Positions 7,908 through 20,776 of a DNA stretch of 26,353 bases are shown piece after piece. This stretch comes from a virus: IMG/VR virus record IMGVR_UViG_3300031974_002078, positions 1 through 26,353 of that record; one strand, written 5' to 3'. Under the pieces are notes generated by a model. It was not told the origin of the DNA and searched no databases. It was given only the letters and a program-made list of their open reading frames with translations. Each line of letters opens with the position of its first letter. The first letter of the stretch is position 1. The position numbers and the translations under genes were made by a program.

Positions 7908-7936
7908 ACAATAGCATACAAAAAAGAGGGTGTCAA
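7908..7936 (-). promoter_or_regulatory. Host-type promoter embedded in a terminator (lysozyme operon)
   Basis: Minus strand: TTGACA (7931-7936), 17-bp spacer, TATTGT (7908-7913) preceded by TG one base upstream (extended -10). The -35 lies in the loop and right arm of the terminator hairpin at 7928-7942, and the U-tract falls in the spacer. Predicted start is close to the lysozyme ATG. Confidence 0.6.
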
Positions 7937-7942
7937 GCACCC
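7919..7942 (-). terminator. Rho-independent terminator of the hli/ferredoxin operon
   Basis: Hairpin GGGTG-CTTGA-CACCC (7928-7942) followed by TCTTTTTTG. It lies 20 nt after the stop of the 41-aa gene, closing the photosynthesis/redox operon. Confidence 0.8.
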
Positions 7943-7962
7943 CCCTACTTATATGTATTAAC

Positions 7963-8346: not shown

Positions 8347-8629
8347 ATTGATCAAACGCTTTTCTAATATTTTGTGTAATGCCCATACCCCCAACATACT
8401 CTGCAAGTTTAATACCATCAGAATCGGTGATAATCAGAACAGGAGTTGCTGTTACACCATACTTTGAAGCAAGGTCAAGATTCTCTTGAGGGATAGGGAT
8501 GTCACTGAAATCTTCAAGGTCAACTTTTTCTAAAAGACTAGTACGTTCGTCTTTAATAGAAACCATGTACTTATCTACAAGAGCACATGGACCACAAGAT
8601 TTTTTAGAAAAAAGAAGAAACCTATTCAT
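8339..8629 (-). CDS. Thioredoxin-like protein (CGPC)
   Basis: 96 aa with thioredoxin-fold features: N-terminal strand FLLFSK, active site CGPC (Cys12, Cys15), and the cis-Pro loop VTATPVLI near residue 62. Shorter than E. coli thioredoxin (about 108 aa) but in range for phage thioredoxin/glutaredoxin-like proteins. A dithiol-disulfide reductase is expected, possibly drawing electrons from the phage ferredoxin encoded immediately upstream (the two genes overlap by one base, TGATG). In T4-like phages such proteins usually serve ribonucleotide reductase. Confidence 0.88.
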   Translation of the reverse strand: MNRFLLFSKKSCGPCALVDKYMVSIKDERTSLLEKVDLEDFSDIPIPQENLDLASKYGVTATPVLIITDSDGIKLAEYVGGMGITQNIRKAFDQYA

Positions 8630-8922
8630 CAGTAGAGCTCTTCTTCCTTTTCGGTTTCAATGACACAATCACTAGTCGGATATGCGACACAAGTCAAAAC
8701 AAATCCTGCTTCAATTTGATCATCATCCAAGAAAGACTGGTCAGACTGGTCAACAGAACCGCTGATAACTTTACCTGCACAAGAAGAACAAGCACCAGCA
8801 CGACACGAATAGTTCATATCAATGCCTGCTTCTTCTGCAGCGTCAAGGATGTATTGATCATCCTCACAAGTAATAGTGTTTTCAGTTCCGTCAGAAGATC
8901 GAAGAGTAATATTAAATGCCAT
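8629..8922 (-). CDS. petF: Plant-type [2Fe-2S] ferredoxin
   Basis: 97 aa, the normal ferredoxin length. Cluster ligands Cys40, Cys45, Cys48 (CRAGACSSC) and Cys78 (LTCVAYP) have the classic CX4CX2CX29C spacing. The protein is acidic, as for photosynthetic ferredoxins. It would accept electrons from photosystem I and pass them to ferredoxin-dependent enzymes such as phage bilin reductases, thioredoxin systems or host FNR. Located between hli and the thioredoxin-like gene on one transcript from the promoter at 9258-9286. Confidence 0.96.
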
Positions 8923-8925
8923 TGT

Positions 8926-9012
8926 TCAGTAAGTTTCAGAAAGTTGTTCTACAGTATAACCCAGAAGACAGAAGAATGCAACTGCCGTAAAGGTGAAAAT
9001 GAATTCAGTCAT
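8926..9012 (-). CDS. 28-aa single-pass membrane peptide between hli and ferredoxin
   Basis: ATG at 9010-9012 overlaps the upstream hli stop as TGATG; the stop at 8926-8928 leaves 3 nt to the ferredoxin start. The peptide is one hydrophobic helix (FIFTFTAVAFFCLLGYTV) with acidic ends. Its size and placement resemble the tiny accessory subunits of photosystem II or cytochrome b6f, but I cannot match it to PsbX, PsbT, PetG, PetL, PetM or PetN. Gene reality rests on coupling on both sides. Confidence 0.65.
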   Translation of the reverse strand: MTEFIFTFTAVAFFCLLGYTVEQLSETY

Positions 9013-9230
9013 CAGAATCCAAGAGCACCAAAGAAGAAGACACTACCAGTTGTAGCATAAGAGATAACTGCTGCAGCAAAACCAAGCATAGCAACACGCC
9101 CGTTCAGTTTTTCTGCTTTCTCTGAATGAGTTTCGATGCCATAACGGTCAAGGTCTTCTTTAGTCATATACATTGTGGGTTCAGTTGCCCACATATTTTG
9201 TTGTCCGTGTTCGTTAGTTGTTACAGTCAT
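9012..9230 (-). CDS. hli: High-light-inducible protein (longer Hli, 72 aa)
   Basis: The Hli core EKLNGRVAMLGFAAAVISYA (about residues 40-59) contains the full ExxNGRxAM chlorophyll-binding motif, followed by TTGSVFFF. An N-terminal extension of about 35 residues distinguishes it from the short Hli downstream. Strong Shine-Dalgarno AGGAGGT (9234-9240) and consensus promoter at 9258-9286, so this is the first and probably best-expressed gene of the operon. Photoprotective role as for other Hlis. Confidence 0.95.
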   Translation of the reverse strand: MTVTTNEHGQQNMWATEPTMYMTKEDLDRYGIETHSEKAEKLNGRVAMLGFAAAVISYATTGSVFFFGALGF

Positions 9231-9257: not shown

Positions 9258-9286
9258 ATTATATAGTAAAAAAGGAACCCTGTCAA
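9258..9286 (-). promoter_or_regulatory. Consensus sigma70 promoter fused to a terminator (hli-ferredoxin operon)
   Basis: Perfect TTGACA (9281-9286), 17-bp spacer, perfect TATAAT (9258-9263). The -35 sits in the loop of the terminator hairpin at 9273-9294, and the terminator's T6 is the spacer. Expected start near 9251, about 20 nt before the hli ATG. Confidence 0.9.
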
Positions 9287-9294
9287 GAGTTCCT
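9268..9294 (-). terminator. Rho-independent terminator upstream of the hli operon
   Basis: 6-bp stem AGGAAC/GTTCCT (9273-9294) with a 10-nt loop, followed by T6 (9268-9273). It closes the transcript carrying the 60-aa ORF, 4 nt after that ORF's stop. Confidence 0.75.
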
Positions 9295-9297
9295 ATG

Positions 9298-9480
9298 TTA
9301 GTCATTGGAAATAAACGACCTACATTTTTCTATGTTTTTGTTACAAAAATTACGAACATATCCATCAACATCTATTTCCATCTGATGGTGTGCGTGATTA
9401 TGCAGAAATCCTATAAAGATTAGAGCACACACAGTTAAGAGATTGAAGTGGATAACAGGAGAAAAAAGAATTCTTTTCAT
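9298..9480 (-). CDS. Small membrane or exported protein lying between two terminators (60 aa)
   Basis: Begins MKRILFSPVIHFNLLTVCA with a hydrophobic segment to about residue 26, followed by a His-rich stretch (HNHAHHQ) and a C-terminal part with two Cys. The ATG immediately follows the T7 tract of the terminator at 9481-9505, and no Shine-Dalgarno is visible. Expression would need readthrough. A basic start and hydrophobic segment support a real protein, but the missing ribosome-binding site keeps confidence moderate. The His cluster could bind metal. Confidence 0.5.
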   Translation of the reverse strand: MKRILFSPVIHFNLLTVCALIFIGFLHNHAHHQMEIDVDGYVRNFCNKNIEKCRSFISND

Positions 9481-20703: not shown

Positions 20704-20776
20704 TGGGGGATGAGGGGATCGAACCCACCTTAACCGAATTATGAGTTCGGTGCATTCACCAGATTGCTAATCCCCC
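20704..20776 (-). tRNA. tRNA with CAU anticodon (Met, or Ile2 if lysidine-modified)
   Basis: Acceptor GGGGGAT/ATCCCCC, anticodon stem CCGAA/TTCGG with loop CTCATAA (anticodon CAT), T-arm with GGTTCGATCC. D-stem is short. 73 nt; CCA is not encoded. Sequence alone does not settle Met versus Ile2; no fMet mismatch at position 1-72 is seen. Confidence 0.93.

Follow-up and report, generated by a model that had tools for sequence, protein, structure and literature searches.

Can one transcript end, and another begin, on a single short run of bases? The question is raised by a short site on the minus strand of the window, by which we mean the whole stretch of DNA analysed here, a virus record of 26,353 bases; its closest named relatives are myoviruses of Synechococcus and Prochlorococcus in the Kyanoviridae. 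The genes around the site encode a GT25 glycosyltransferase, a cyanophage outer-membrane protein, a 60-aa ORF, an hli product, a 2Fe-2S ferredoxin, a thioredoxin-like protein and a phage lysozyme-like protein. A preliminary description had proposed that a terminator and a promoter are fused there into one element ahead of hli and ferredoxin.

A predicted hairpin and promoter on the same bases

On the minus strand, positions 9258-9294 of the window read AGGAACTCTTGACAGGGTTCCTTTTTTACTATATAAT. The element is present at exactly the described position, with TTGACA, a 17-bp spacer, TATAAT and a hairpin all on one strand. From 9294 to 9258 the order is AGGAACTCT, TGAC, AGGGTTCCT, TTTTT, ACTA, TATAAT, which we divide into the following features, the two boxes and the T-run being read directly from the sequence:

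9273-9294, minus strand: predicted terminator hairpin AGGAACTCT-TGAC-AGGGTTCCT, 9 bp with loop TGAC, supported by the fold and by stem covariation in relatives
9281-9286, minus strand: -35 box TTGACA, at the hairpin tip; TTGAC is invariant among relatives
9268-9273, minus strand: T-run, six T including the last stem base, the putative terminator U-tract within the promoter spacer
9258-9263, minus strand: -10 box TATAAT, 17 bp past the -35 box

The stem is longer than the 6 bp first proposed, with nine pairs: A-T, G-C, G-C, A-T, A-T, C-G, a T.G wobble, C-G and T-A. Because the first T of TTGACA pairs with its last A to close the stem, the strict loop is TGAC only; the -35 box had been placed in the loop, which is correct for the hairpin tip but not for the whole hexamer. 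Similarly, the U-tract does lie inside the 17-bp spacer but had been equated with it, while the spacer also holds what remains of the 3' arm (GGGTTCCT), followed by five more T and ACTA. The reported run of six T is reached by counting the last stem base.

The hairpin RNA has a minimum free energy of -11.1 kcal/mol, compared with a mean of -4.5 for shuffled sequences (z = -3.35). A stem containing G+C, a U-tract directly after it and a position past a stop codon together predict an intrinsic terminator, and TTGACA, 17 bp and TATAAT at a fitting distance from the ribosome binding site and start codon predict a sigma-70 promoter; this geometry is kept in relatives. Within the first 20 kb of the window, this TTGACA-N17-TATAAT is the sole promoter match at 12 of 12 positions. 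Transcription is predicted to start at about 9251-9250, some 7 nt past TATAAT, and a purine 7 nt after the -10 box is conserved among relatives. Since the hairpin lies upstream of this predicted start, the new hli RNA would not contain it. The flanking genes, and a second element of the same kind, are as follows:

9298-9480, minus strand: small membrane-protein-like ORF, 60 aa, upstream of the element, its stop codon 3 nt ahead of the hairpin
9012-9230, minus strand: hli (high light inducible), the gene the promoter is predicted to serve; homologues are annotated "high light inducible protein"
8629-8922, minus strand: 2Fe-2S ferredoxin, next in the unit after hli (Pfam Fer2, E 6.6e-25)
7908-7946, minus strand: second loop-nested element, upstream of the phage lysozyme-like gene, with hairpin AGGGGGGTGCTTGACACCCTCTT, a T-run and a -10 box TATTGT preceded by TGC

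The hli product matches Pfam Chloroa_b-bind slightly under the cut-off, and its start codon is 27 nt past the -10 box with an AGGAGG ribosome binding site in between (9240-9235). The gene after the 7946-7908 element matches Pfam Phage_lysozyme2, and two of the related loci (L152 and L080) also carry nested elements ahead of the orthologous lysozyme-like gene. A further candidate at 4790-4756 (TTGCCA, 11-bp stem) was not counted, as it falls inside a possible small ORF (4849-4706).

Nested elements recur in cyanophages and exceed chance

We scanned the surroundings of hli and ferredoxin in cyanophages (158 loci, 1.81 Mb in total). The 960 terminator-like and 828 promoter-like sites found there gave 52 pairs with the -35 box in the hairpin, as against 0-1 per dinucleotide shuffle (n = 5), although the sequences are related and these counts are therefore not independent events. 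An excess over shuffled genomes, which the preliminary description had named as a check on itself, is thus observed. The offset from the -35 box to the stem end has a sharp peak at -16 to -11. For these scans a strict promoter definition was retained, because relaxing it to 9 of 12 matches made the signal within single genomes less distinct.

We also assembled a set of 96 distinct promoters, picked solely by TTTTT in the spacer and ignoring pairing, from the loci together with S-PM2, Syn9, P-SSM2, S-B43, DSL-LC02 and one 250-kb metagenomic record. Of these 96 promoters, 54 had a stem of 6 bp or more around the -35 box; when 5' arms were swapped, the mean was 9.3 and the maximum 16 (200 trials). 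The mean stem was 6.1 bp, versus 3.2 bp with swapped arms. Among promoters lacking TTTT in the spacer, stems of at least 6 bp were seen in 49 of 1102. In an alignment of 19 distinct elements TTGAC was invariant while seven of the nine stem pairs had changed on both sides; pairing held in 94.7% of cells, compared with 74.6% after shuffling, and none of 500 shuffles reached any of these measures. As the 19 elements were picked from long stems, the arm swap is the unbiased test. The loop and the -10 box appear to be held by the promoter and the arms by pairing alone, a pattern that indicates selection on both signals.

These results bear on the simplest explanation, that promoter-like and terminator-like sequences merely coincide in AT-rich DNA. 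Each motif is indeed common alone (63 promoter-like matches in 20 kb, as many as in shuffles), but the count of nested pairs, the swapped-arm control and the orthologous nested elements at hli of S-PM2, near position 124,308, and of DSL-LC02 all speak against it, and the covariation contradicts it. We consider chance overlap extremely improbable.

Under the strict rule, nested forms number two in S-PM2, three in P-SSM2, one in S-B43, one in DSL-LC02 and one, weak, in Syn9. The 250-kb metagenomic cyanophage has seven, some with weak or absent T-runs. By the same rule the nested form was not found in T4, S-CRM01, HTVC008M or Ma-LMM01, and 1.39 Mb of Prochlorococcus, the sole host control, contained no nested element. 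Random other viral contigs with a promoter and a T-run had the stem in 6 of 73 cases, which is within the control range (mean 2.6, maximum 7); the design therefore does not extend to viruses at large. What had been presented as a curiosity of a single site instead recurs among cyanophages and is akin to composite elements already known.

Nested elements sit at gene borders

The positions of nested elements relative to genes are consistent with a double role. An upstream stop codon lies -11 to 28 nt from the stem in 48 of 54 elements, and a start codon follows the -10 box by 21-28 nt in 42 of the 50 for which one was found. The downstream gene is mostly hli; by sequence inspection, other downstream genes are PurC-like, GDP-mannose dehydratase-like, GIY-YIG-like and lysozyme-like. 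Taken with the covariation of the stem around a constant -35 box, the stop and start codon positions and the unrelated genes involved support, at the level of sequence, the original suggestion that one transcript could stop and another begin on shared bases.

Among 100 distinct hli genes, the rule used assigned 37 to the nested form, 7 to a tandem form, 52 to a promoter without a recognised hairpin and 4 to no promoter. Insulation is therefore not required, since 52 of the 100 have a promoter without a recognised hairpin. Median intergenic lengths were 80 nt (nested), 62 nt (promoter only) and 99 nt (tandem). One and the same hli promoter, with its nested hairpin, follows about 11 upstream gene families that are unrelated to each other; behind others it lacks the hairpin, and one upstream family can show either state. 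Mapped on the hli tree, which is weakly resolved, hairpin state switches some 14 times, and well supported branches force at least five of these switches. The closest hli relatives of the window's gene lack the nested form.

Two observations concern the hli promoters and leaders themselves. Many hli 5' leaders (for example L004, 9960-10000) have a conserved ATGTAAAGAT/TTTACA-like inverted repeat between the -10 box and the start codon, far exceeding shuffled leaders. Where hli promoters lack the hairpin, operator-like palindromes around the -10 box numbered 6, compared with 7.4 in the swap control; as this is within the control, we claim no regulator site there.

Relation to known composite elements

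T4-like phages carry PeSL (promoter-early stem-loop) cassettes, reportedly described by Arbiol in 2010 and Comeau in 2014. Like a PeSL, the element joins a terminator stem-loop and a strong sigma-70 early promoter as a single composite between co-directional genes and sits at seams of exchangeable gene modules. In the window, two genes on one strand are separated by an intrinsic-terminator-like stem-loop combined with a predicted strong sigma-70-like early promoter, at a border of exchangeable modules where the nested element and the hli cassette stand behind the unrelated upstream families. PeSLs are described as mediating gene shuffling in T4-like phages; a study of S-PM2 (PMC4503421) reported, for one region of that phage, a separate early promoter as well as stem-loops, and judged PeSL density low.

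The layout differs among phages. In RB49 we counted 12 tandem elements, with TTGACA after the hairpin and T-run, and none that is nested. There the promoter comes after the terminator, whereas the cyanophage element has its -35 box in the hairpin loop and its U-tract in the spacer; in the window and its relatives the tandem order of hairpin, U-tract and -35 box thus gives way to loop nesting. KVP40 (L358-L369) has at least six copies of near-identical composites, AAAAGGGTTGAC-NNNN-GTCAGCCCTTT-CTTG-TATTAT. These resemble the cyanophage element in having the -35 box within the hairpin and the 3' arm within the spacer, but their -35 (TTGAC) is paired in the 5' arm, the tetraloop is separate, the U-tract is short and the stems are near-identical. 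We regard the cyanophage form as a nested variant of the promoter-terminator cassette known from T4-like phages, which fuse stop and start in three ways: in tandem (RB49), with the -35 box in a stem arm (KVP40) or with the -35 box in the loop (cyanomyoviruses).

A probable stop-start insulator and its alternatives

The best reading, and in our judgement a probable one, is that the element is a compact stop-start insulator. The evidence in hand consists of the sequence, the excess over chance, the covariation and the gene context; from it we infer termination, initiation and early timing. Coming from the upstream gene, host RNA polymerase would make the 9-bp hairpin and U-tract and release its RNA by intrinsic termination. 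The same DNA, when double-stranded, would be read by host sigma-70 polymerase as a consensus early promoter, the hairpin loop serving as its -35 box and the 3' arm plus T-run as its spacer. Initiation about 7 nt past TATAAT would give an hli-ferredoxin mRNA without the hairpin and with a leader of about 20 nt. The early gene cassette would in this way be insulated from any upstream gene at a cost of about 18 additional nt. The T4 polymerase-modifying genes alt, modA and modB are absent from cyanomyoviruses, and early in infection these phages are thought to rely on host sigma-70 polymerase in its unmodified form (PMC2984593). The loop form would solve a hard double-coding problem, hard because the same bases must suit sigma-70 and fold as a terminator.

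Other roles for the same layout were weighed. One is that the element is mainly a conserved seam for module exchange, as proposed for PeSLs. The identical hli promoter and leader behind many unrelated upstream genes fit this, as do the repeated changes of hairpin state on the hli tree. Stem sequences, however, differ among copies while pairing is kept, so selection acts on structure and not on the sequence identity that homologous recombination would need. We find it rather unlikely that exchange is the main function; the seam and insulator roles are in any case compatible. The preliminary description had suggested a regulatory switch, in which upstream transcription and new initiation compete for shared DNA and toggle between readthrough and a fresh start during infection. 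The geometry implies overlapping footprints: a polymerase pausing on the U-tract would cover the -35 to -10 region, and one bound at the promoter would block the hairpin DNA. Against this, the element showed neither a regulator site nor an alternative fold, and the covariation suggests a stem conserved as a plain strong terminator. Moreover, since the new transcript would lack the hairpin, a switch at the RNA level is not expected and competition could occur only through polymerases meeting on DNA, which leaves a switch unlikely.

The remaining possibility is that polymerase is handed on: after RNA release the enzyme would stay, about 16 bp from the next start, rebind sigma and restart, coupling the two genes. 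E. coli polymerase is described in PMC6978380 as reinitiating at nearby promoters after intrinsic termination, with 37-55% in vitro, and PMC6978322 proposes gene coupling via promoters adjoining terminators. These systems share with ours a terminator beside a promoter, a layout that would favour the mechanism, and in the nested form the distance is minimal. On the other hand, the reinitiation figures come from an in vitro E. coli system and not from cyanobacterial polymerase, and the portions of the two papers to which we refer describe no nested element. They do report diffusion over long distances, so nesting would not be needed, and compaction is a simpler account of the layout. We judge such coupling unlikely; if true, the end of one transcript would directly feed the start of the next gene.

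Whichever applies, the element offers a natural template for direct tests of reinitiation by terminated polymerase or of interference between termination and initiation. A simple rule for finding the borders of early genes in uncultured cyanophages follows as well, host-derived genes such as hli included.

Other promoter-hairpin overlaps and RNA motifs

Stems can also surround the -10 box. Stems of at least 7 bp around it occur in 21 of 1291 cyanophage promoters, versus 5.9 (maximum 11) in the swap control. L075 and L323 (DSL-LC02) have U-tract terminators with the -10 box in the loop, for example AACCTCTGGG-ATAGAATAAA-CCCAGAGGTTTTTT, and such terminators may represent a further topology. In the window, a perfect promoter at 26167-26139 (minus strand), upstream of tRNA-Arg, has its -10 box in the loop of CCCACAT-ACCTTATAAT-ATGTGGG. 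Another perfect TTGACA-N17-TATAAT, at 20703-20675 (minus strand), has its -35 box as the 5' arm of TTGACACTTCGGTGTCAA, has no U-tract and directly abuts the 3' end of tRNA-Met (20704-20776). At 10072-10039 (minus strand), ahead of the outer-membrane protein gene, an early promoter (TTGACA-N17-TATTAT) overlaps a late-like TATAAATA (10046), and its TTGACA includes the stop codon of the GT25 gene. Finally, the window contains two known cyanophage-associated RNA motifs of Rfam, both on the minus strand: wcaG at 19825-19728 (87.7 bits) and PhotoRC-II at 829-734 (74.6 bits).
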